Source: Bradyrhizobium elkanii USDA 76
GTDB lineage: Bacteria > Pseudomonadota > Alphaproteobacteria > Rhizobiales > Xanthobacteraceae
Assembly: GCF_023278185.1 (NCBI RefSeq)
Contig: NZ_CP066356.1
Span: 3,216,001-3,280,000 of the forward strand
Reading direction: 5' to 3'
Length of the DNA stretch: 64,000 nt
Positions 4,657 to 63,262 of the stretch are shown one piece after another. Each line of letters starts with the position of its first letter. Within the stretch, counting starts at the first letter, position 1. The position numbers and the translations under genes were made by a program. The notes under the pieces are model-generated. The model worked only from the letters and a program-made list of their open reading frames with translations. It searched no databases and was not told the DNA's origin.

Positions 4657-5277
4657 TCAGGCGACGCCGCTCTCGATCGCCAGCCGCACCAGCTCTGCCG
4701 ACGTGCGCACGCCAAGCTTCTGGCGCATGATCGATGACGTGTTTGCGACCGTCTTGTATGACGAATGCACCAGCCAGGCGATCTCCGACAGGCTCTTGCC
4801 GGAACTGAGCAGGCGCAGGATCTCCATCTCGCGCGAAGTGAGCTTGGAGAGCGGATTTTGCGCAAAGCCCGGCCGCGCGAACGCCACGTTGCGCGCGATC
4901 GCCGGCGGCAGATAGACGCCGCCATTGCCGACCTCGCGCACCGCTTCCACCAGATCGTTGGGATCGCCGGTCTTCGAAACGTAGCCCTTGGCGCCGATGT
5001 CGATGGCGCGCGCGGCGAACACCGGGTCGTCGTTCATGCTGAACATGATGAGGCGCGCAGATACATCATGCGTCAGGATGCGGCGCGCCAGCTCGAAGCC
5101 GGAGACCGTCGGCAGGTTGATGTCGATCACGCAGAGATCGGGCTTCTCCGCGACGAACGCCCGTTCGCCGCTTTCGGCATCCGCCGCTTCCAGCAGCGTG
5201 ATCTCGGGATCGTCGGCGAACACGGTGCGGCAACCGGAGGCAACGATGGGATGATCGTCAACGATCAGAATGCGCAT
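4657..5277 (-). CDS. LuxR-type response regulator (FlhR-like)
   Basis: 206 residues: receiver domain at 1-120 with acidic pair Asp7/Asp8, phospho-acceptor Asp52, Ser80 and Lys102, then a LuxR/NarL helix-turn-helix from about 143 to 200 (LTSREMEIL...). It is divergent from the histidine kinase gene starting at 5462 and is immediately followed by fghA. In Paracoccus the FlhS/FlhR pair controls methanol, methylamine and formaldehyde oxidation genes. The location here, between fghA and xoxF, makes the same role a good inference, but similarity was judged by eye and context only. Confidence 0.9.
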   Translation of the reverse strand: MRILIVDDHPIVASGCRTVFADDPEITLLEAADAESGERAFVAEKPDLCVIDINLPTVSGFELARRILTHDVSARLIMFSMNDDPVFAARAIDIGAKGYVSKTGDPNDLVEAVREVGNGGVYLPPAIARNVAFARPGFAQNPLSKLTSREMEILRLLSSGKSLSEIAWLVHSSYKTVANTSSIMRQKLGVRTSAELVRLAIESGVA

Positions 5278-5461
5278 GGCGTTGTTGTTCCGGCGACCTG
5301 CTTCGATTCACTCGTCATCACATCGGTTTGCGCGAAGGACAGGTCGGTTCCGACCGGTTGTGCACCTCGTGCGAGATTGCGATAGGGTGCGATTAGATAG
5401 CCGGGCAAATTTGGCTGTCAACGATCCTCTCGGAGGAGGGATCGCGGTCGGGGGCAACGTC

Positions 5462-6826
5462 ATGTGGCAAAAGCTATCCTTGCGCGCGCGGATCAACCTG
5501 CTGCTGGCGCTGATCCTGGCGCTTGGCCTCGGCATCAATATTGCGCGGCTCGTGCTGGAAGCGGGGCCGCGTGTCCAGGCCGAGGACCAGAGCGTGATCC
5601 GCCTGGCGCGCGAGTTCGTTGCGACGATTGTGGCCGGTCTCGACGAGGCGCCGGATCCCGATGCGCGGCTCGATCAGATCGTTCAGGACCTGAGCCGGCT
5701 GCGTCATGTCAGCATCACGCGGCAGGATGGCGCGACCGCAAAATCTCCTGATCGCCCCGAGGACGCCGGCGAGCCGCGCGCTCCGCCGCAGTGGTTCGTC
5801 GCGCTGGTTCATCCCGAGCAGACCTCGGTGCGGGTGCCGATCTCGGTGCACGGCAAGCCGCAATCGCTGGTCATCACCTCGCATCCCGACGACGAAATCG
5901 CCGAGATCTGGGACGGCATCGTCACCCAGCTCGAGGTCGGCTCCGCGATCGCGGTCGCGCTGCTTCTGGTCACCATGCTGGTGGTCGGCCGCGCGCTGGC
6001 GCCGCTGGAGGCATTGTCGCAGGCCATGACCGGCATCGAGGCCGGGGACTACGATGCACGCGTCGAGCCCGGCGGTTCGCCGGAATTGGCCGCGATCTGT
6101 GCCAAACTGAACCATTTGGCAGCGACTCTTGGCGACGCCGTGGAGGGCAAGCGGCAGCTCGCCGAGCGTGCGGTCTCGCTGCAGGATTCCGAGCGCAAGG
6201 AGATCGCGCGCGAATTGCACGACGAGTTCGGGCCCTATCTGTTTGCCCTGCGCGCGCATGCCGGCGCGCTGACCCGGCTGTCGGAAGTCGAAAGGCCGGA
6301 CCCTGCGGCATTGCGCAAGCACGGCAACGCCATCCTCGAGCAGGTCAACGCGCTCCAGCAGTTCACGCGCCGGATTCTGGAGCGATTGCGGCCGGTCGGA
6401 CTGGCCGAGCTCGGGCTTACGGAAGCGCTCGGCGCGCTGGTGCGGCTATGGAGCGAAACCCACCCGGAGGTGGAGATCGAGAGCCGCATTTCGGCGGCGC
6501 TCGGCGATACCGGCGAGATGGCCGACCTCACGATCTACCGCATCGTCCAGGAAGCGCTCACCAACGTGTTCCGCCATGCCGGTGCGACGGCGGTCGATAT
6601 CACGATCGAACCGGCGGAACGGCAGGCAGGACTACGCGGCAGCCGCGACTGCGCGCTGGTGCGGGTTCGCGACAATGGCCGCGGCCTGCTGAGCGATCAC
6701 AGGCTTGGTCGCGGTTTAACCGGGATGCGGGAGCGGATCCTCGCGCTCGGCGGTACGCTTAGCATCAATTCCAGCGATGATGGCGTGACGGTCGAGGCGC
6801 TCGTGCCAAAGGCCCCACGGTCCTAG
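5462..6826 (+). CDS. Sensor histidine kinase, HisKA_3 type (FlhS-like)
   Basis: I start it at the ATG at 5462 (MWQKLSL), giving 454 residues; the upstream open frame overlaps the divergent regulator and lacks membrane features. Two membrane segments (about 11-33 and 158-178) flank a periplasmic domain of about 120 residues, followed by a HAMP linker. The phospho-acceptor His253 is in ARELHDEFG, typical of NarL-partner kinases, and the ATPase domain has DNGRGL and GLTGMRER. It is the likely partner of the divergent response regulator. Its stop overlaps the stop of the convergent DUF1232 gene by three bases. Confidence 0.9.
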   Translation: MWQKLSLRARINLLLALILALGLGINIARLVLEAGPRVQAEDQSVIRLAREFVATIVAGLDEAPDPDARLDQIVQDLSRLRHVSITRQDGATAKSPDRPEDAGEPRAPPQWFVALVHPEQTSVRVPISVHGKPQSLVITSHPDDEIAEIWDGIVTQLEVGSAIAVALLLVTMLVVGRALAPLEALSQAMTGIEAGDYDARVEPGGSPELAAICAKLNHLAATLGDAVEGKRQLAERAVSLQDSERKEIARELHDEFGPYLFALRAHAGALTRLSEVERPDPAALRKHGNAILEQVNALQQFTRRILERLRPVGLAELGLTEALGALVRLWSETHPEVEIESRISAALGDTGEMADLTIYRIVQEALTNVFRHAGATAVDITIEPAERQAGLRGSRDCALVRVRDNGRGLLSDHRLGRGLTGMRERILALGGTLSINSSDDGVTVEALVPKAPRS

Positions 6827-11144: not shown

Positions 11145-12254
11145 ATGAAGACCCGCGCCGCAGTCGCATTTGAAGCAAAGAAGCCGCTTGAGATCGTCGA
11201 GCTCGATCTGGAAGGCCCCAAGGCCGGCGAGGTCCTTGTCGAGATCAAGGCGACGGGCATCTGTCACACCGATGCCTACACGCTCGACGGCTTCGACAGC
11301 GAGGGCATCTTTCCCTCGATCCTCGGGCACGAAGGTGCGGGCATCGTTCGCGAGGTCGGCGCCGGCGTGACGTCGGTCAAGCCCGGCGATCATGTGATCC
11401 CGCTCTACACGCCGGAATGCCGGCAGTGCAAAAGCTGCCTGAGCCAGAAGACCAATCTCTGCACCGCGATCCGCGCCACCCAGGGCAAGGGGGTCATGCC
11501 CGACGGCACCTCGCGGTTCAGCTACAAGGGCAAGACGGTCTTCCACTATATGGGCTGCTCGACCTTCTCGAACTTCACCGTGCTGCCCGAGATCGCGGTG
11601 GCCAAGATTCGCGAGGACGCGCCGTTCGACAAGAGCTGCTACATCGGGTGCGGCGTCACCACCGGTGTCGGCGCGGTCGTCAACACCGCCAAGGTGACGC
11701 CGGGCTCCAACGTGGTCGTGTTCGGCCTCGGCGGCATCGGCCTCAACGTGATCCAGGGCGCCAAGATGGTCGGCGCCGACAAGATCATCGGCGTCGACAT
11801 CAATGACTCCAAGGAGGCTTGGGGCAAACAGTTCGGCATGACGCATTTCGTCAACCCGACCAAGGTGTCGGGCGACATCGTGCAGCACCTTGTCGGGCTC
11901 ACCGATGGTGGCGCCGACTACACCTTCGACTGCACCGGCAACACCAACGTGATGCGGCAGGCGCTGGAAGCCTGCCATCGCGGCTGGGGTGTCTCGGTGG
12001 TGATCGGCGTCGCGGAATCCGGCAAGGAGATTGCGACCCGGCCGTTCCAGCTCGTCACCGGACGGGTCTGGAAGGGCACCGCCTTCGGCGGCGCGCGCGG
12101 CCGCACCGACGTGCCGAAGATCGTCGACTGGTACATGGGCGGAAAGATCCAGATCGATCCGATGATCACCCACGTGCTGAAACTCGACGAGATCAACAAG
12201 GGCTTCGACCTGATGCACGAGGGAAAATCGATCCGTTCGGTCGTCGTATTCTGA
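11145..12254 (+). CDS. frmA: S-(hydroxymethyl)glutathione dehydrogenase / class III alcohol dehydrogenase
   Basis: 369 residues from the ATG at 11145, which follows a TGGAGA site; the open frame from GTG 11133 runs through that site. It is a cytoplasmic zinc- and NAD-dependent enzyme that oxidises S-hydroxymethylglutathione to S-formylglutathione. Catalytic zinc ligands are in GICHTDAY and GHEGAG; the four structural Cys are in the CRQCKSC...NLC stretch; the NAD site is GLGGIGLN. Third gene of the xoxF operon; the product feeds FghA encoded at 3787-4626. Also called flhA, adhC or gd-FALDH in relatives. Confidence 0.96.
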
Positions 12255-56982: not shown

Positions 56983-58242
56983 ATGACCAGACCAGAATTG
57001 CCGGGGCGCACGCCGCGCGGGGAGGGGGTTCCGACGGCGCTCGACGGCCTGCTGGTCGTCGACTTCACCCGCGTCGTGGCCGGCCCGGCCTGTACGCAAA
57101 CGCTGGCCGACTTCGGGGCCGAAGTCATCAAGATCGAGAATCCGGACGGCGGTGATGACACGCGCGCCTATGAGCACGCTGAAATCGGCGGAGAGAGCGC
57201 GGCGTATCTGAGCCTCAATCGCAACAAGCGCGGCATCGCGCTCGATTTCAACAATCCGGCCGCGCTCGAGGTTGCTCGCGCGTTGATTGCCAAGGCCGAC
57301 GTCGTGGTGGAGAATTTCTCCGGCGGCGTGATGAAGAAATTCGGTCTCGATTATGCGTCGGTGGCGCCGACCAATCCGCGGCTGATTTACTGCTCGATCT
57401 CCGCCTACGGCCGCAAAGGCGATTTCGCGCTGCGCCCGGGCTTCGACCCGATCACGCAGGCCGAAAGCGGCTTCATGTCGCTCAACGGTTTCCCGGATGG
57501 CGAGCCGGTGCGCACCGGGCCGCCGATCGTCGACATGGCAACTGGCATGTCGGCCTGCAACGCCATCCTGCTGGCGCTGATCGCTCGCGATCGGCTCGGT
57601 CGCGGTCAGCAGGTCGAGGTCGCATTGATCGACACCGCGGTGTCAATGACCGGCTTCTATGGCATGGCCTATCTCATCAATGGCAACAATCCCGGCCGTT
57701 TCGGCAACTCTCCGAACGGTTCGCCGACCGTCGGCGTCTACCGGGCGTCCGATGGTCCGCTCTACATGGCCTGCGCCAATGACCGGCTCTATCGCCGGCT
57801 GGTCACCGACGTGCTGGAACGCCCGGATCTCGTCACCGATCCCGAGTTTGCTCACCGCAAGGCGCGGACCGCCAACAAGGAGAAGCTGCGCGGGATCATT
57901 GCCAGCGTGTTTGCAGGCGACACGCTCGAGAACTGGATGGCGAAGATGAAGAAGGCCAACATTCCGGTTGGCTATCTGCGGACGGTCGAGGAGGGGTTCA
58001 ATGCGCCCGAGGTGCGCGACCGGCATCGCCTGAGCAGGATTGCGCATCCAACCGCCGGCTCGGTTCCGAACATCGAGTCGCCGGTCAATATGAGCCTGAC
58101 GCCGACCGTTGATCCTGTTGCGGCTCCGCTGCTCGGTCAACATACAAAGGACGTGTTGAGCAAGACGCTTGGTTACGACGACCGGCGCATTGCCGCGCTG
58201 GCCGAGGCCGGCGCGTTTGGCAAGGCAGGCAACACCGGCTAG
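56983..58242 (+). CDS. CaiB/BaiF-type CoA transferase
   Basis: 419 residues; 'LLVVDFTRVVAGPACTQTLADFGAEVIKIE' region at about 23-52 is typical. Third such gene in the window and the most distant in sequence. Stands alone, without a partner transporter or hydratase, so its substrate cannot be guessed. Its stop is the first base group of a dispersed repeat. Confidence 0.88.
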   Translation: MTRPELPGRTPRGEGVPTALDGLLVVDFTRVVAGPACTQTLADFGAEVIKIENPDGGDDTRAYEHAEIGGESAAYLSLNRNKRGIALDFNNPAALEVARALIAKADVVVENFSGGVMKKFGLDYASVAPTNPRLIYCSISAYGRKGDFALRPGFDPITQAESGFMSLNGFPDGEPVRTGPPIVDMATGMSACNAILLALIARDRLGRGQQVEVALIDTAVSMTGFYGMAYLINGNNPGRFGNSPNGSPTVGVYRASDGPLYMACANDRLYRRLVTDVLERPDLVTDPEFAHRKARTANKEKLRGIIASVFAGDTLENWMAKMKKANIPVGYLRTVEEGFNAPEVRDRHRLSRIAHPTAGSVPNIESPVNMSLTPTVDPVAAPLLGQHTKDVLSKTLGYDDRRIAALAEAGAFGKAGNTG

Positions 58243-58340
58243 AGCCTTTTTCCGTGCCTGTGGAATCGGAACGGGGCTCTAGATTCTGGTTTGACGCGTT
58301 TCCTTGACGCGAACCCGTATCCGCTTCGCTCGAAAACGCT
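58241..58340. repeat. Dispersed intergenic repeat (Bradyrhizobium type)
   Basis: Begins agagcctttttccgtg, has ggggctctagattctggtt in the middle (AGAGCC/GGCTCT inverted pair) and ends cttcgctcgaaaacgct. I know this word order from many intergenic regions of Bradyrhizobium. It starts at the stop codon of the CoA transferase and may serve as its transcript end. Confidence 0.7.
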
Positions 58341-58490
58341 CCAGCGTGCTCGGCCTGCACAAAGGATCAACTATTCGCAAACCAGCCTGACCGCAGGCGA
58401 GAGGAAAGCCTCTCGCCTCGCGAGATGTCTTTCAGGCGTCGCAGGCCCGGCGCGTCGCCGGCGGCCCGGGAGCTGGTCCGTTTCGGGAAC

Positions 58491-58676
58491 TCAGTTCGGC
58501 TTGCTGCGCAAGTTGTTCCTTGGCATACTTTCAACTTCCTCGGGCTCCGCCCGATCAATCTCGAGGCGTGCCATCCGGAGGATGAGGGTTGCCGTGGTGA
58601 GGCCGAGGCGTTCGGCCTCTTGTGCTGCGGTGTCGACCTTCTGGGCCAAGCCTTCACGTTTACCTGGGTATGCCAT
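58491..58676 (-). CDS. Small helical protein, divergent pair member A
   Basis: 61 residues; ATG at 58676 with GAGGA six bases upstream. Helical start (LAQKVDTAAQEAERLGLTTA), acidic middle, basic end. No domain recognised. Its start is only 25 bases from the start of the divergent small gene at 58702, so the two ribosome binding sites nearly touch. Confidence 0.6.
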   Translation of the reverse strand: MAYPGKREGLAQKVDTAAQEAERLGLTTATLILRMARLEIDRAEPEEVESMPRNNLRSKPN

Positions 58677-58701
58677 TCGTAATCCTCACTTAAGGTGCGA
58701 G

Positions 58702-58884
58702 ATGAAAAATCCCACATACGTTGCAGAGCTGCAGAAGAAGCTCGGAGCTCCATCGAGCGAAACACTGGAAAGCCTGCGATTGTTGAAGGCTTTCCTTCGA
58801 CTTGCGCCCGACCAGCGTTCCGAGGTCATCGAGCTGGTCGAACGTTTGGCGGCTGAGCCGCCGCGCGATCCCTCTCTGTCCTGA
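58702..58884 (+). CDS. Small helical protein, divergent pair member B
   Basis: 60 residues; ATG at 58702 with AAGGTG five bases upstream. Mostly helical (TYVAELQKKLG, then LRLLKAFLRLAPDQRSEVIELVERLA), a shape like small regulators or antitoxins, but no family match. Ends 25 bases from the convergent cupin gene. Confidence 0.6.
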   Translation: MKNPTYVAELQKKLGAPSSETLESLRLLKAFLRLAPDQRSEVIELVERLAAEPPRDPSLS

Positions 58885-58909
58885 GGTGCTCGCAAATCTT
58901 TCCTGTGCG

Positions 58910-59230
58910 TCAGTTGTTCATTGGCTTGGCGGGCGTTTGCGTCGCGATCACGTAGATTGCGCCGCCCTCGAGCGCTTCGGATTGATGCAGCGTGCCGGCT
59001 GGCAGCAAGATGGTGTCGCCGGCGCCAACCACCCGCTCGCCGCCATCCCAGATGAAGTGCAGCCGGCCGCTGATGATCATCAGGATCTCGTCGACCGGAT
59101 GGGTATGGAATTGATGCACCTTGCCGGCCGCATCATGTTGCAACTCGACCGACCCCTGGGGCGGAAGCAGGTTCAGGATCTCCGGGTCGATCGCAAATTC
59201 AGTCTTCGTGCCTGCGATGATCTGGGTCAT
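58910..59230 (-). CDS. Small single-domain cupin
   Basis: 106 residues from the ATG at 59230. Cupin motif 1 reads HQFHTHPVDEILMIISG with the metal-type H-x-H and Glu; motif 2 reads LLPAGTLHQSE. A metal-dependent enzyme or binding protein. It overlaps the YqcI/YcgG-family gene by four bases and is the last gene of a four-gene operon, which suggests it acts on a product of that pathway. Confidence 0.88.
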   Translation of the reverse strand: MTQIIAGTKTEFAIDPEILNLLPPQGSVELQHDAAGKVHQFHTHPVDEILMIISGRLHFIWDGGERVVGAGDTILLPAGTLHQSEALEGGAIYVIATQTPAKPMNN

Positions 59231-60000
59231 GCTGCCTGCTCCTTGTTCGCGATCGGTGGCGTCTTGTTCTGCGCGAGCTTGGCGAAGGGGCAGCCCGAAC
59301 TCGCATTGTTGTCGTCGTGCAGGAAGTACTGCAGATACTCGCGGCCGTCGGTCGCACCGTAGCGGCCCAGAAGCGGAGAGGGGCTCGCGCTGTCGTACGG
59401 GATCAGGCGCTTGCGCACCTCCGCGAACGCGGCGTTCGCGGCCTTCTCCGTCCCGAGGATCTTCTCGAACACCCAGCGCGGCTGGAATGTGAGCATGAAG
59501 GCGCTGGACCGGCGGCTCTGCCGCATCACATGCGCGGGCGTCGTGCAGACCACGAAGATCGGCTCGCCTGCAAACGAGAACTCCCACATCGGGTGGTCGA
59601 TCTGTTCCGGAATCTCCGATGGCCACGGGTTCTTGTCCAGCCGTGCGAGCTGGTCGAGCGTCAGCCACATCTTGCGATAATAGGCATCGAGCGTCTGTAC
59701 CGGGCGGGGTCGCGTGAACACGATCAACGAGGTGTTGGGACCGAACGAGCGCGCCTGCGAGACATATTGCCCGAGTTGCTCGCCCAGCACCGCCACATCA
59801 TATGGGTCGAGAAACAGGTAGCGGAGCTGATCCTGGCGATGTCCAGTCACGCCGAACACGCAAGGGAACGGCCTTGCCTCGCTGCTCATCTGCGCTTCAA
59901 ACTCGGAGAACATCACGCTCTGCCAGCTGCTAACCGGAAAGTTTGACGCGATTTCGCCTTTTCTCAAGAACAAGCGCTCCATAACACCCCCTACACTCAT
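59227..60000 (-). CDS. YqcI/YcgG-family protein (candidate haem-dependent N-oxygenase)
   Basis: 257 residues (ATG at 60000; an ATG six codons later at 59982 with GGGGG upstream is an alternative). The family motif RPFPCVFG places a conserved Cys at residue 47; 'RYLFLDPYD' and PRWVFEK are also typical. From memory, studied members (DcsA, GntA, AglA) hydroxylate guanidine nitrogens, some with haem. That makes N-oxidation of an amino acid or amine a fair inference, not a proof. It sits between the MFS transporter and the cupin in one operon. Confidence 0.8.
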   Translation of the reverse strand: MSVGGVMERLFLRKGEIASNFPVSSWQSVMFSEFEAQMSSEARPFPCVFGVTGHRQDQLRYLFLDPYDVAVLGEQLGQYVSQARSFGPNTSLIVFTRPRPVQTLDAYYRKMWLTLDQLARLDKNPWPSEIPEQIDHPMWEFSFAGEPIFVVCTTPAHVMRQSRRSSAFMLTFQPRWVFEKILGTEKAANAAFAEVRKRLIPYDSASPSPLLGRYGATDGREYLQYFLHDDNNASSGCPFAKLAQNKTPPIANKEQAA

Positions 60001-60007
60001 AACGACA

Positions 60008-61300
60008 CTAACGAGCTATCAACTTGCTTCTCATCAAGAGCGGCCCGGCAATGCCCGGCAGCGACATGAGAAGCAGAATGACAATCAAGGCGCTGTAGCC
60101 GCCGTCGCCGATCGCGGCCGTGTTGTGTACGGCGTCGGTCCCCGAGGCGTTGCTGGCGGCTAGCATCGCGAAGCCGATGATGGGCTGCGAGATGCCGGCG
60201 AGGATTCCGGCGGCTGTGGTGTTCACGGATGCGCCCACGCCGATCAGATCGGCGGTGTAGAGCTTCTTGACGCATTTCAGCACCAGCGGGACGGTGCCGC
60301 CGGCGACGAGCCCCAAGGCAGTAAACACGACGGTGACGTAGGCGAGACCAAATGTCTGGGCGATCGGCGGCAGCAGCATCGCGATCAGCAGCATGCGGAG
60401 CACGCAAATGCCGATCAGCGCGCGGTCAAGCGCCGCCGCGGCGCGATCGGCGGCGTGACCCAGGAAGATCGAGCCGAGCGCATTGCCGATCATGAAGGCG
60501 AGCAGGGGCGTGCCGGCCGCCGTCGGGGAGATGTGGAAGAAGTGCGCGACCATCGGAATGCCCCAGACGCCCGACAGCGTCGTTACCACCGCGAAGTGCG
60601 ACGCAAACGTCATTGCGCAACCCCAGTTCGCGACATGGGCCAGCGATTGCCGCGCGGCGATCACCACGCCCTTCAGCGTCTTGTTGCTGTGCGAGGCCGG
60701 ATCGGGCTTGAGCGCAAGCTTGGCGAAAGCGAGGTTGGCCAACCCAATGCACGCGATGAACAGGAAGCAGGCTCGCCAGCCAAAGCCTGAGACCGCGGCT
60801 GCAAGCGGCGTGGTCGCGATCACGCCGCCGACATAGCCCGAGACCTGCGAGATGCCCGACATCATGCCGAACCGCTCATCCGCGAAGCTCTGTGCCACGA
60901 GCTTCAGGAGCGCGGTGAAGACCAGCGCATCGCCGCAGGCGACGATCAGGCGTGCAACAAAAACGTCGAGCAGGTTCGGTGCCAGCGCGAACGCGGCGCT
61001 GCCGAGCGAGGAGGCGATCATGCTGACGAGGACGACGCGCTTGACGCCGTAACGGTCGACCAGAAGGCCTGCCGGAATCTGCATCAATGTGTAGCCCCAG
61101 AAGTAGCTTGAGGCGAGCATCGCAACGCCGGCCGCATCGGTGTTGAAGTCGTGCATGAAACTGAGGCTGACCGATTGCGGCGATACGCGCTGCAGGAAGG
61201 CAATGGCGTAGGCGATGGCCACCGCCGTCCACGCGAGATAGGCGCGATCGGTGAAGCGCGACGTCGGGGCATAAACAGCTTGTTGTCCGAGCATCGACAT
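60008..61300 (-). CDS. MFS transporter
   Basis: 430 residues from the ATG at 61300, whose first base is the last base of the GNAT gene's TGA (TGATG). About twelve membrane segments; the loop 2-3 motif is 'GLLVDRYGVKRVV' (near 78-90). The most likely role in context is export of the operon's product or import of its substrate. Ends eight bases before the YqcI/YcgG gene. Confidence 0.9.
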   Translation of the reverse strand: MSMLGQQAVYAPTSRFTDRAYLAWTAVAIAYAIAFLQRVSPQSVSLSFMHDFNTDAAGVAMLASSYFWGYTLMQIPAGLLVDRYGVKRVVLVSMIASSLGSAAFALAPNLLDVFVARLIVACGDALVFTALLKLVAQSFADERFGMMSGISQVSGYVGGVIATTPLAAAVSGFGWRACFLFIACIGLANLAFAKLALKPDPASHSNKTLKGVVIAARQSLAHVANWGCAMTFASHFAVVTTLSGVWGIPMVAHFFHISPTAAGTPLLAFMIGNALGSIFLGHAADRAAAALDRALIGICVLRMLLIAMLLPPIAQTFGLAYVTVVFTALGLVAGGTVPLVLKCVKKLYTADLIGVGASVNTTAAGILAGISQPIIGFAMLAASNASGTDAVHNTAAIGDGGYSALIVILLLMSLPGIAGPLLMRSKLIAR

Positions 61301-62013
61301 CACACCCTCGCGTAACCCACCGAGAAAAGGGCATCCGCTGAATTCGGAATCTTCCGCGACATCGCGGCATCGACCAGCGACGCGGCGCCATGATAGGCCT
61401 GCCGATGGTGCTTAATGTGGCCGTAAGCGCCACGCATGATCATGTCGGGTAGTTCGAGCGGCCTGCCCGGATAGAGCGAGGTGCACATCTCGATACAGGC
61501 CGCCTGCAGGGCGAGATCCTGCGTATCGTCGAGCAAAGAAGGAGTCACTTTTTCGCAAATCTTAGCGTTCGCTGCCCAGACGATCGGGTTGCGGGTTCGC
61601 CAGCCGTAGATCACGTTGCCCGCGGCTCTCGCGGCGGCCCCGGAGCATTTCAGGACTTCCGATGTGAAGAAGCCGTAGAAGCCGCGGCCCTGGTGCGCCG
61701 GGAGCACTTCCGTGCCGCTGCGATAGATGCCAAGTCCGGCCGACATCTCCAGAACGCGGTAGACCGAGAAGGCAATGAGGCCAGACCGATCGTAGACAAG
61801 GATCAGGCTATACTTCTTGTCGAAGGGCGAGGAGGTTGCCGTCCAGTGCGGCTCGGTGGCCTGCCAGTTGACGGCAATGATGCCGTTCATGGCGTCCATC
61901 AGCGGCTGACGGTCGCAGGCTTCCACCCGGGAGGCATCGGGTAGACTGTAGATCGCGTAATCCGTCCAAGGCGATTTGATCGCCTCGTATCCGCTGCCCA
62001 GATTTCGCAGCAT
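61300..62013 (-). CDS. GNAT-like acyltransferase
   Basis: 237 residues from the ATG at 62013 (GGAG seven bases upstream; an ATG at 62034 would add seven residues). The acyl-CoA loop is seen as QGRGFYGFF near 137-145, preceded by GTEVLPAH. The C-terminal part is longer than in simple GNATs and unassigned. First gene of the four-gene operon, facing the GlxA-type regulator 63 bases away; it might acylate the pathway's amine. Confidence 0.75.
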   Translation of the reverse strand: MLRNLGSGYEAIKSPWTDYAIYSLPDASRVEACDRQPLMDAMNGIIAVNWQATEPHWTATSSPFDKKYSLILVYDRSGLIAFSVYRVLEMSAGLGIYRSGTEVLPAHQGRGFYGFFTSEVLKCSGAAARAAGNVIYGWRTRNPIVWAANAKICEKVTPSLLDDTQDLALQAACIEMCTSLYPGRPLELPDMIMRGAYGHIKHHRQAYHGAASLVDAAMSRKIPNSADALFSVGYARV

Positions 62014-62076
62014 GGCAGAACTCCAGAATTCCATTGCGAGCTATACAGGGCAGCCTCGAATGGCTTAAAGGACAAT

Positions 62077-63096
62077 ATGCCCTCGAAAACTGCCAAAGCG
62101 CCCCGGCCTGAGCCGCGCGACAAGAAAGCAACGCGGCGAATCGCGATCGTTGCCTTTCCGGGTGTGACCTTGCTCGACATCTCGGGACCGGCGCAGGTGT
62201 TTGCAGAACTGGAAGCGATCGAGTTGCCGGGACCGGACTACTCGCTGTCCTACCTGTCGACCTCCGGCGGGTTGGTGCCGACCGATGTCGGCATGATGAT
62301 CGACACGGCGCCGATCGACAGTATTGCGCCCGCCGAGGTCGACACGCTGGTGATCCCCGGCGGGCCCGGCATCTGGAAGATCCGCAACGATGCGAAGTTG
62401 ATGAACTGGATCGCGGAGGCGCTGCCGAAGGCGCGCCGTATCGCGTCGGTTTGCCTTGGCGCATTTGCGCTGGCCTGGACCGGGATTCTGGACGGCAAGC
62501 GGGCAGCAACGCACTGGCGTTATTGTCCCCGTCTGCAGGATAGCTTTCCGAATATCCGGGTCGAGCCCAACGCGATCTTCGTCAAGGACGGACGGGTCTG
62601 GTCATCGGCCGGGGTCAGTGCCGGCATCGATCTGGCGCTCGCCATGATCGAGGAGGATTTCGGCCACACCATCGCGCTCGATGTCGCGCGCAGACTTGTG
62701 GTGTTTCTGAAACGGCCGGGCGGTCAGAGCCAATTCTCGACCGTCCTTGCCGCCCAGGCATCGGACGTCGAGGGACGCTTCAGCGCGCTGCACGCCTGGA
62801 TCATCGAGAACATCACGAGCGACCTCAAGGTCGAGACCCTCGCGGAAAAGGCGGGGATGACGCCGCGCACCTTTGCCCGGACCTATGTCAGCCGCACCGG
62901 AATGACGCCGGCAAGCGGCGTCGAGGCGCTGCGCGTGGAGACCGCGCGCTTGCTGCTCGAAAGCCGCCAGATCGGCGGCGTGGTCGAGGTCGCCAAGCGC
63001 GCGGGATTTGGCGATGACGAGCGAATGCGGCGAGCCTTCCTGCGCCACCTCGGCGTATCGCCGACCGAGTACCGAAACCGGTTTTCGGGCAGTTAG
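62077..63096 (+). CDS. GlxA-type AraC-family regulator (DJ-1/PfpI plus HTH)
   Basis: 339 residues. N-terminal DJ-1/PfpI amidase-like domain (about 21-190; the nucleophile-elbow region reads SVCLGAFAL), then AraC helix-turn-helix domain (about 235-335; LAEKAGMTPRTFARTY and FGDDERMRRAFLRHLGVSPTEY). Family members control arginine, choline and related amine catabolism. Divergent from the GNAT-MFS-YcgG-cupin operon with 63 bases between, so it is the probable regulator. Confidence 0.9.
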   Translation: MPSKTAKAPRPEPRDKKATRRIAIVAFPGVTLLDISGPAQVFAELEAIELPGPDYSLSYLSTSGGLVPTDVGMMIDTAPIDSIAPAEVDTLVIPGGPGIWKIRNDAKLMNWIAEALPKARRIASVCLGAFALAWTGILDGKRAATHWRYCPRLQDSFPNIRVEPNAIFVKDGRVWSSAGVSAGIDLALAMIEEDFGHTIALDVARRLVVFLKRPGGQSQFSTVLAAQASDVEGRFSALHAWIIENITSDLKVETLAEKAGMTPRTFARTYVSRTGMTPASGVEALRVETARLLLESRQIGGVVEVAKRAGFGDDERMRRAFLRHLGVSPTEYRNRFSGS

Positions 63097-63262
63097 CTCG
63101 CTTCGCGCGAGGCCTGTCCGGATGCGGACCGCTTCGCGTCGAAAGCCGATCCATCTCACGAGCGAATAGCTGGCCTTCGCTGGCCGGATTCGTGGCTCAA
63201 GGTGGTAGCTTTTCCGGTTTGTCTGCGGCTAATGTGCCGGCCAAATCGGGAGAAGAAACACC

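Follow-up and report, generated by a model that had tools for sequence, protein, structure and literature searches.

A YqcI/YcgG protein and a small cupin of Bradyrhizobium elkanii as a candidate two-enzyme module for guanidine N-oxidation

A 64,000-nucleotide stretch of Bradyrhizobium elkanii USDA 76 (GCF_023278185.1, NZ_CP066356.1 positions 3,216,001-3,280,000, in a genome of 9.5 Mb), referred to here as the window and used for all coordinates, contains a cassette of five genes. A minus-strand operon, confirmed here, encodes in order a GNAT-fold protein, a major facilitator superfamily (MFS) transporter, a YqcI/YcgG protein (YcgG below) and a small cupin, while a GlxA/FtrA-type regulator is divergently encoded on the plus strand. 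The best reading of these sequences is that YcgG and the cupin represent a minimal two-enzyme version of the logic proposed for the ChmN/ChmM proteins of chalkophomycin, which is itself SznF-like. To judge from sequence and analogy, the chances are about even that the cassette encodes two enzymes of N-oxidation, served by a transporter and a regulator of their own, and that an N-N bonded product results. In our judgement the two enzymes very probably act in series on one guanidino substrate, and this substrate is probably arginine or a close relative.

Pairing of YcgG with a cupin

Loci were fetched with the YcgG protein alone. The search yielded 191 stretches encoding a relative, of which the best 80 were kept and merged into 79 loci, 71 of them non-actinobacterial (Pseudomonadota and Bacillota) and eight actinobacterial. 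Every one of the 71 non-actinobacterial loci has a cupin partner, either as the next gene downstream in the same orientation (66 loci) or in one open frame with YcgG (L057, L068, L069, L071 and L075). In 55 of the 66 non-fused loci, the nearest possible start codon of the cupin overlaps the YcgG stop by 4 bases. Pfam models, applied to four of the five fusions, identified both domains in each, with the cupin below cut-off in two. A protein search with one fusion returned 599 matches; among the 114 new proteins in the best 120, a cupin match was found in 71 by hidden Markov model (HMM) and in 64 by motif. Fusions occur in both Bacillota and Pseudomonadota, and the starred branches of the tree cannot be explained with fewer than two changes of the fusion label.

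A transporter gene accompanies the pair, as judged by clustering, in 69 of the 71 non-actinobacterial loci, and its type differs between groups. The Bradyrhizobium type (45 loci) has an MFS gene, cluster c1 (13 loci) an amino-acid permease (APC) and cluster c2 (10 loci) a LysE transporter, with Pfam run on L047, L064 and, outside the 79-locus set, L173 for the permeases, and on L058 for LysE. With the MFS-like gene of Allorhizobium L046 also counted, the two loci left over are L052, which ends at a contig edge, and L065. The conserved core is YcgG plus cupin, with a transporter that changes, and GNAT with MFS is the Bradyrhizobium form. A preliminary description of the sequence had treated the four-gene operon as the unit, which applies within Bradyrhizobium but gives way elsewhere to the pair and its variable transporter.

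The eight actinobacterial loci have a different partner. In all eight, a full-length SznF homologue (phmmer E-values of 4e-31 to 9e-48 in a search of a small set of fragments) lies 0.2-2.2 kb from a YcgG gene of the same group. Each of the eight homologues has lost six of six diiron ligands of the haem-oxygenase-like diiron oxidase (HDO) domain and kept the cupin residues His407, His409, His448 and Tyr459. The YcgG proteins of these pairs share the tree side and the gate residues of the window protein, in alignments built without ChmN itself. ChmN, also a YqcI/YcgG protein, is described in the accessible text of its report as binding haem via its own Cys47 and making Ndelta-hydroxy- and Ndelta,Nomega-dihydroxyarginine, and was proposed there as a stand-in for the HDO domain (PMC10849742). 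Some actinobacterial YcgG proteins (P0201, P0227 and P0230; L077 1435-2598) also end in an MbtH-like domain, as would suit proteins that work with nonribosomal peptide synthetase (NRPS) partners.

Predicted active sites

The window YcgG protein matches AglA with an E-value of 5e-31, and its residues Cys47, Phe149, Arg163, Gln173, Arg175, Phe178, Arg196 and Gln224 correspond to AglA Cys44, Phe152, Arg166, Gln177, Arg179, Phe182, Arg200 and Gln228. The placing among haem-binding YqcI/YcgG proteins, on which the preliminary description relied, agrees with this mapping: the haem-ligating Cys of AglA and ChmN is kept, together with the AglA gate and haem-propionate residues, except that Lys196 is replaced by Phe and Lys225 by Glu (E221). 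The haem-ligand Cys, which belongs to an FPC motif, is present in all 80 rows of the alignment with AglA. All 52 sampled cupin-linked proteins keep AglA Cys44, Phe152, Arg166, Gln177, Arg179, Phe182 and Gln228, and have Glu at the position of Lys225. According to the available text on AglA, changing Lys225 to Glu leads to hydroxylation of free L-arginine at Ndelta. Assignment as a GntA-type N-hydroxylase was rejected, with a score of 55.4 bits to the NCBIfam equivalog NF041366 against a cut-off of 145.

In the window cupin, His42, His44, His82 and Tyr93 correspond to SznF His407, His409, His448 and Tyr459 with equal spacing, the Tyr lying 11 residues after the last His in both. Mutating the three cupin His residues of SznF stopped product formation, according to the accessible part of the SznF work (PMC11705231). 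All 70 linked cupins that could be evaluated, out of 71, have the Tyr, as do 69 of 70 evaluable fusions and all eight SznF-like proteins. The same Tyr occurs in only three of 15 other three-His alphaproteobacterial cupins, and in only one of 12 other evaluable cupins of the window's genome. No HDO-type domain was reported by Pfam or NCBIfam in the five cassette proteins. These results strengthen the suggestion, made in the preliminary description, of N-N or N-O chemistry where a cupin adjoins an N-oxygenase, in that the same YcgG group pairs with either a small cupin or an SznF-like protein that carries the same residue set.

Distribution and variants

Among 385 alphaproteobacterial genomes, the only ones in which the fusion profile exceeds 300 bits are the window's own and three that belong to a single genus, so the distribution of the pair is scattered and the pair is not common. 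Matches at any level occur in 130 of the 385, most of them by the cupin part alone as far as the listed rows show. PF08892, the YcgG family, has a match in 22 of 398 Pseudomonadota genomes, that of the window among them. The other 22 PF08892 places (L090-L111) represent another YcgG subfamily, whose scores against the fusion profile do not exceed 76 bits, and the cupin was not matched within about 1.5 kb on either side of these YcgG genes. Each of the 28 tree rows classed as cupin-free was checked for a neighbouring cupin. Matches of about 160 bits to YcgG were also seen inside frames of 6,500-8,200 codons (G594:C1:415160-415834 and G684:C3:348525-349199), in the genus that also has a YcgG-cupin-amino-acid permease locus (L173); each may be a YcgG domain of a giant synthetase.

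Of 44 plasmid records, eight were inspected, and five of these carry the cupin. Plasmids of Thioclava, Leisingera and Rhodobacteraceae SC52 are annotated with an Lrp/AsnC regulator, YcgG, the cupin and an amino-acid permease. In Rhodoferax, a plasmid-borne YcgG-cupin fusion precedes an amino-acid permease, and in Acetobacter, a plasmid has a YcgG of 169 residues near insertion sequence (IS) elements, followed by an unannotated cupin, both confirmed by HMM. No cupin was found within about 8.5 kb in the other three, from two haloarchaea and Parageobacillus, whose YcgG proteins are 34-36% identical. One haloarchaeal gene (L185) is beside a sulfotransferase and an adenylyl-sulfate kinase, and the other (L184) beside an asparagine-synthase-like gene; both are possibly parts of other, archaeal N-hydroxylation clusters.

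Larger variants also occur. In Allorhizobium undicola (L046, 6890-11917), YcgG and the cupin are found with a GlxA-type regulator beside the pair, 46% identical to that of the window, an MFS-like protein (below the Pfam cut-off) encoded third after the cupin, and an ATP-grasp protein whose similarity to LAL_C2, an L-amino-acid ligase domain, is weak and below the cut-off. This variant may put the product into a dipeptide. In seven Bacillota loci (cluster c7: L058, L059, L061, L062, L065, L066 and L076), the pair is followed by an isochorismatase-family hydrolase, a label that comes from a Pfam run on L058; a carbamoyl or urea-like product is a possible substrate of this hydrolase.

The cassette in Bradyrhizobium

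All 45 close loci (44 titled Bradyrhizobium and one Hyphomicrobiales metagenome-assembled genome) show the five genes in one and the same order and orientation, and this constancy of order and strand argues against a chance arrangement. Conservation of the genes together in relatives, on which the operon proposal of the preliminary description depended, is thus observed. The nearest loci by YcgG protein are those of B. pachyrhizi (L044, 99%) and B. mercantei (L001, 98%), both of which we take to belong to the elkanii group. The flanking genes are kept less often, the flavin mononucleotide (FMN)-dependent dehydrogenase in 40 and the coenzyme A (CoA)-transferase in 39 of the 45.

Within 60 Bradyrhizobium genomes, a YcgG match at E 1e-20 was found in 13, the window's own included. 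Eleven of these have a protein at 82-100% identity, one of them together with a paralogue of about 31%, and the other two have only the paralogue. The distance between the CoA-transferase and FMN-dehydrogenase genes is 4.8-5.2 kb in nine carriers, as opposed to 139-151 bp in ten Bradyrhizobium genomes with no YcgG match at that threshold. When four of these empty sites were aligned with the window, similarity ended near 58223-58235 and resumed at 63197. In two further carriers (G024 and G807), the YcgG gene is away from these neighbours. The cassette block seems to have been gained or lost whole. Repeats framing it are imperfect ones only, of at most 30 nucleotides, and the window has no Rfam match at the gathering threshold.

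Short PF08892 fragments were seen in G032 (C408:7-168, at a contig edge), which is one of the ten empty-site genomes, and in G016 (C1:7469828-7469992), neither of which has a YcgG match at 1e-20. A Bradyrhizobium locus of genome G009 (L175) has two YcgG genes of another subfamily at 4830-5729 and 11302-12171, the scored one 31% identical; they are accompanied by a transposase-like open reading frame (ORF), an amino-acid permease, a radical S-adenosylmethionine (SAM) protein and an aldehyde dehydrogenase, and no cupin-profile match occurs in the 16 kb fetched around them. In the window, the roughly 670 bases from the CoA-transferase stop to the cupin stop (58243-58909), which are part of the cassette block, have no gene assigned to them and contain a plus-strand ORF at 58291-58884.

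Features of the cassette, in coordinates of the 64,000-nucleotide window
Feature	Coordinates	Strand	Remarks
GNAT-fold acyltransferase-like protein	61300..62013	-	237 aa; alternative start 62034 gives 244 aa
MFS transporter	60008..61300	-	430 aa; PF07690 (MFS_1) 122 bits
YqcI/YcgG protein, predicted haem-thiolate guanidine N-oxygenase	59227..60000	-	257 aa; PF08892 216 bits; predicted axial ligand Cys47
Small cupin	58910..59230	-	106 aa; Cupin_2 44 bits; His42, His44, Glu48, His82, Tyr93
GlxA/FtrA-type transcription regulator	62077..63096	+	DJ-1_PfpI PF01965 77 bits; HTH_18 PF12833 69 bits
Cassette block, found or missing as one piece, between CoA-transferase and FMN-dependent dehydrogenase	58243..63196		edges approximate

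The genes are tightly packed. The MFS start sits inside the GNAT stop with a 1-base overlap, and the cupin overlaps the YcgG stop by 4 bases, both as given in the preliminary description, whose 8-base gap between MFS and YcgG is corrected to 7 bases (25 bases if YcgG starts at 59982). The 63 bases across which the regulator was said to face the operon are recovered when the GNAT gene starts at 62013. This second ATG is favoured because the resulting 237 residues are the commonest length among relatives (52 of the best 120 of 462). In the case of YcgG, 106 of 120 listed relatives are 251 residues long, so the true start may be 59982.

The GNAT-fold protein matches no Pfam or NCBIfam family at E 0.01. 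Its AlphaFold2 model has a mean predicted local distance difference test (pLDDT) score of 71.6, with residues 187-232 poor. A Foldseek search with the model gave 163 PDB matches at E-values up to 0.001, with TM-scores of 0.3-0.6 and NatD as the best match (E 9e-6); nearly all of the best 50 are titled as acetyltransferases or CoA-bound GNAT proteins, the titles of 7ypv and 5z6n being silent on this point. The best 120 of its 462 relatives are all at least 74% identical, and a profile match occurs in one of 240 sampled alphaproteobacterial genomes, namely the window's own. The protein looks like a tailoring or self-protection step of the Bradyrhizobium lineage.

Proposed mechanism and alternatives

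Conserved residues and characterised relatives suggest that YcgG would bind haem via Cys47, receive electrons from a general reductase and hydroxylate guanidine nitrogens. The substrate would be free L-arginine or something closely similar, Ndelta is the probable first position, and a second hydroxylation may follow, as with ChmN. The cupin would provide a mononuclear metal site of three His residues, with Glu48 nearby and Tyr93 beside it, at which the hydroxylated guanidine may be rearranged, as by the cupin domain of SznF, to an N-N bonded product, an N-nitroso compound or a diazeniumdiolate (free graminine or a related compound, for example). The GNAT-fold protein may acylate the substrate, an intermediate or the product, either to stabilise it or to protect the cell. 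Export would be the task of the MFS protein, and the GlxA/FtrA-type regulator would switch the operon.

Several observations weigh against this proposal. On the YcgG side, Glu at AglA position 225 is not specific to the cupin-linked group, since it also occurs in 23 of 28 cupin-free YcgG proteins, and the Phe at position 196 is a further departure from AglA. The limits of the cupin-linked group are unsure, because a quickly built tree places AglA and two cupin-less Bradyrhizobium YcgG proteins inside it, with very long branches. Overall scores do not single out SznF as the relative of the cupin. In a profile search, SznF scored 28 bits (E 1.2e-5), below YxaG (40 bits over two domains) and below 3d82, KdgF and TM1010 (29-31 bits). 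With a fusion relative, SznF was tied by Z-score with other cupins and JmjC proteins, and level with 3d82 by Foldseek. Furthermore, the linked cupins carry Glu48 where all eight SznF-like proteins have Arg, as well as an extra invariant His39. The proton-transfer role of SznF Tyr459 was assigned by computation only, in the accessible text (PMC11705231), and the N-N step of ChmM, according to that of the chalkophomycin report, was not reconstituted in vitro (PMC10849742). The stand-alone YcgG-cupin pair has no known activity, no redox partner, ligase or methyltransferase is encoded in the cassette, and the amino-acid permeases of other loci may import rather than export.

One alternative, which we consider rather unlikely, is that the product stays N-hydroxylated and that the cupin isomerises, cleaves or oxidises the hydroxyguanidine, for instance to a hydroxyurea or a hydroxylamine, with a small N-hydroxylated compound as the result. 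The YcgG products characterised before ChmN keep their N-OH group in the final compound, as stated in the available text of PMC10849742. Cupins act in many ways, and that of the window weakly matches hydroxylaminobenzoate lyase (E 0.0035) and mandelonitrile lyase (E 8e-5), in both cases below the cut-off; the isochorismatase-family gene of the seven Bacillota loci is also consistent with such a route. This must be set against the His-His-His-Tyr set common to the cupin and SznF-like partners of the same YcgG group, and against the score of the window YcgG far below the GntA cut-off. The same substrate logic and the same residue sets would also serve for a two-protein analogue of nitric oxide (NO) synthase, in which YcgG makes N-hydroxyarginine and the metal cupin converts it to citrulline and NO, nitroxyl (HNO) or nitrite. 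There are two redox-type metal enzymes and no ligase, and the smallness of the conserved unit suggests a simple product. We nevertheless regard NO release as quite improbable, as NO needs no transporter and one accompanies the pair in nearly all non-actinobacterial loci, and as the actinobacterial homologues stand beside SznF-like proteins of a type linked, in the accessible literature, to N-nitroso amino acids.

The cassette could also be catabolic or detoxifying, serving the uptake and oxidation of a guanidino compound of plants or soil such as arginine, canavanine or homoarginine. Amino-acid permeases, which follow the pair in the 13 loci of cluster c1, with an Lrp/AsnC regulator in several, usually import their substrates. 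GlxA/FtrA-like regulators often control amine catabolism, and a GNAT protein with efflux is a pattern of self-protection too. However, the cassette has no further degradation enzymes, LysE-type transporters are exporters as a rule, and the ATP-grasp protein of Allorhizobium with its weak LAL_C2 similarity, like the NRPS-linked ChmN/ChmM, points to biosynthesis. We give this explanation a low probability.

Returning to N-oxidation in series with cupin rearrangement, a broader generalisation can be offered tentatively, and we hold it doubtful: YcgG with a stand-alone or fused cupin may be a minimal N-N-bond-forming machine scattered across bacteria, converting free L-arginine to a free diazeniumdiolate or N-nitroso amino acid (free graminine or similar), which would leave the cell to act as a metal ligand, NO donor or antimetabolite. 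In that case SznF and ChmM would be larger relatives, and an arginine-to-NO-donor route would have been overlooked in soil, plant-associated and marine bacteria. Enzymes that form N-N bonds are few. If the pair works as proposed, it would provide a two-gene, easily expressed system, one-chain fusions included, for the coupling of haem N-oxygenation to cupin rearrangement. In Bradyrhizobium and other genera, a class of small molecules derived from arginine might be added, and proteins now named only YqcI/YcgG or hypothetical would gain a likely role. Published SznF mining, in the text available, started from full-length SznF, a query by which a 106-residue cupin would hardly be found. No description of the stand-alone or fused pair was found in the accessible portion of the open-licence literature, supplements aside.

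Comparison with known systems

Two groups of N-N-forming enzymes were considered and set aside. MetRS-cupin hydrazine synthetases (PyrN, RHS1/5UQP) resemble the pair in that a small cupin completes the N-N bond after an N-hydroxylase has acted, with both stand-alone and fused forms, according to the accessible text (PMC8664883). Neither a MetRS-like ligase nor a lysine N6-hydroxylase was found in the five cassette and three flanking proteins scanned, and 5UQP is not among the best 60 rows of the cupin sequence-profile search. The haem/ferredoxin N-N enzymes of the KinJ type are another family, with no YqcI or cupin in the available text of that paper (PMC12154649). The window regulator shares with GlxA/FtrA-type regulators a DJ-1/PfpI-like domain and an AraC-type helix-turn-helix, and scores 234 bits against a cut-off of 425 for the FtrA equivalog.

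AglA of argolaphos, the YqcI/YcgG protein of solved structure, acts on AMPn-Arg, and the text available on it mentions no cupin partner; its phosphonate-contact lysines 196 and 225 are those found as Phe and Glu in the window protein. SznF/StzF, the N-nitrosourea synthase of streptozotocin, has the same cupin His-His-His-Tyr with the same spacing. In contrast, the window has the small cupin module only, and an unrelated haem enzyme takes the place of the diiron HDO. A 2010 study, in its accessible part, describes NRPS operons in which YqcI/YcgG proteins, with their conserved cysteine, stand next to diiron-oxygenase-cupin proteins (PMC2922099). Closest of all is ChmN/ChmM, in which a haem N-oxygenase is combined with an SznF homologue whose HDO domain is inactive, the same arrangement as in the eight actinobacterial pairs, and for which guanidine N-hydroxylation followed by cupin rearrangement is the proposed logic. 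The window differs in its partner, a stand-alone cupin of about 106 residues (or, elsewhere, a C-terminal fusion) with no remnant of the HDO domain, and in the lack of an NRPS or polyketide synthase (PKS) in the cassette; we file the YcgG-cupin pair as a variant of the ChmN/ChmM kind.

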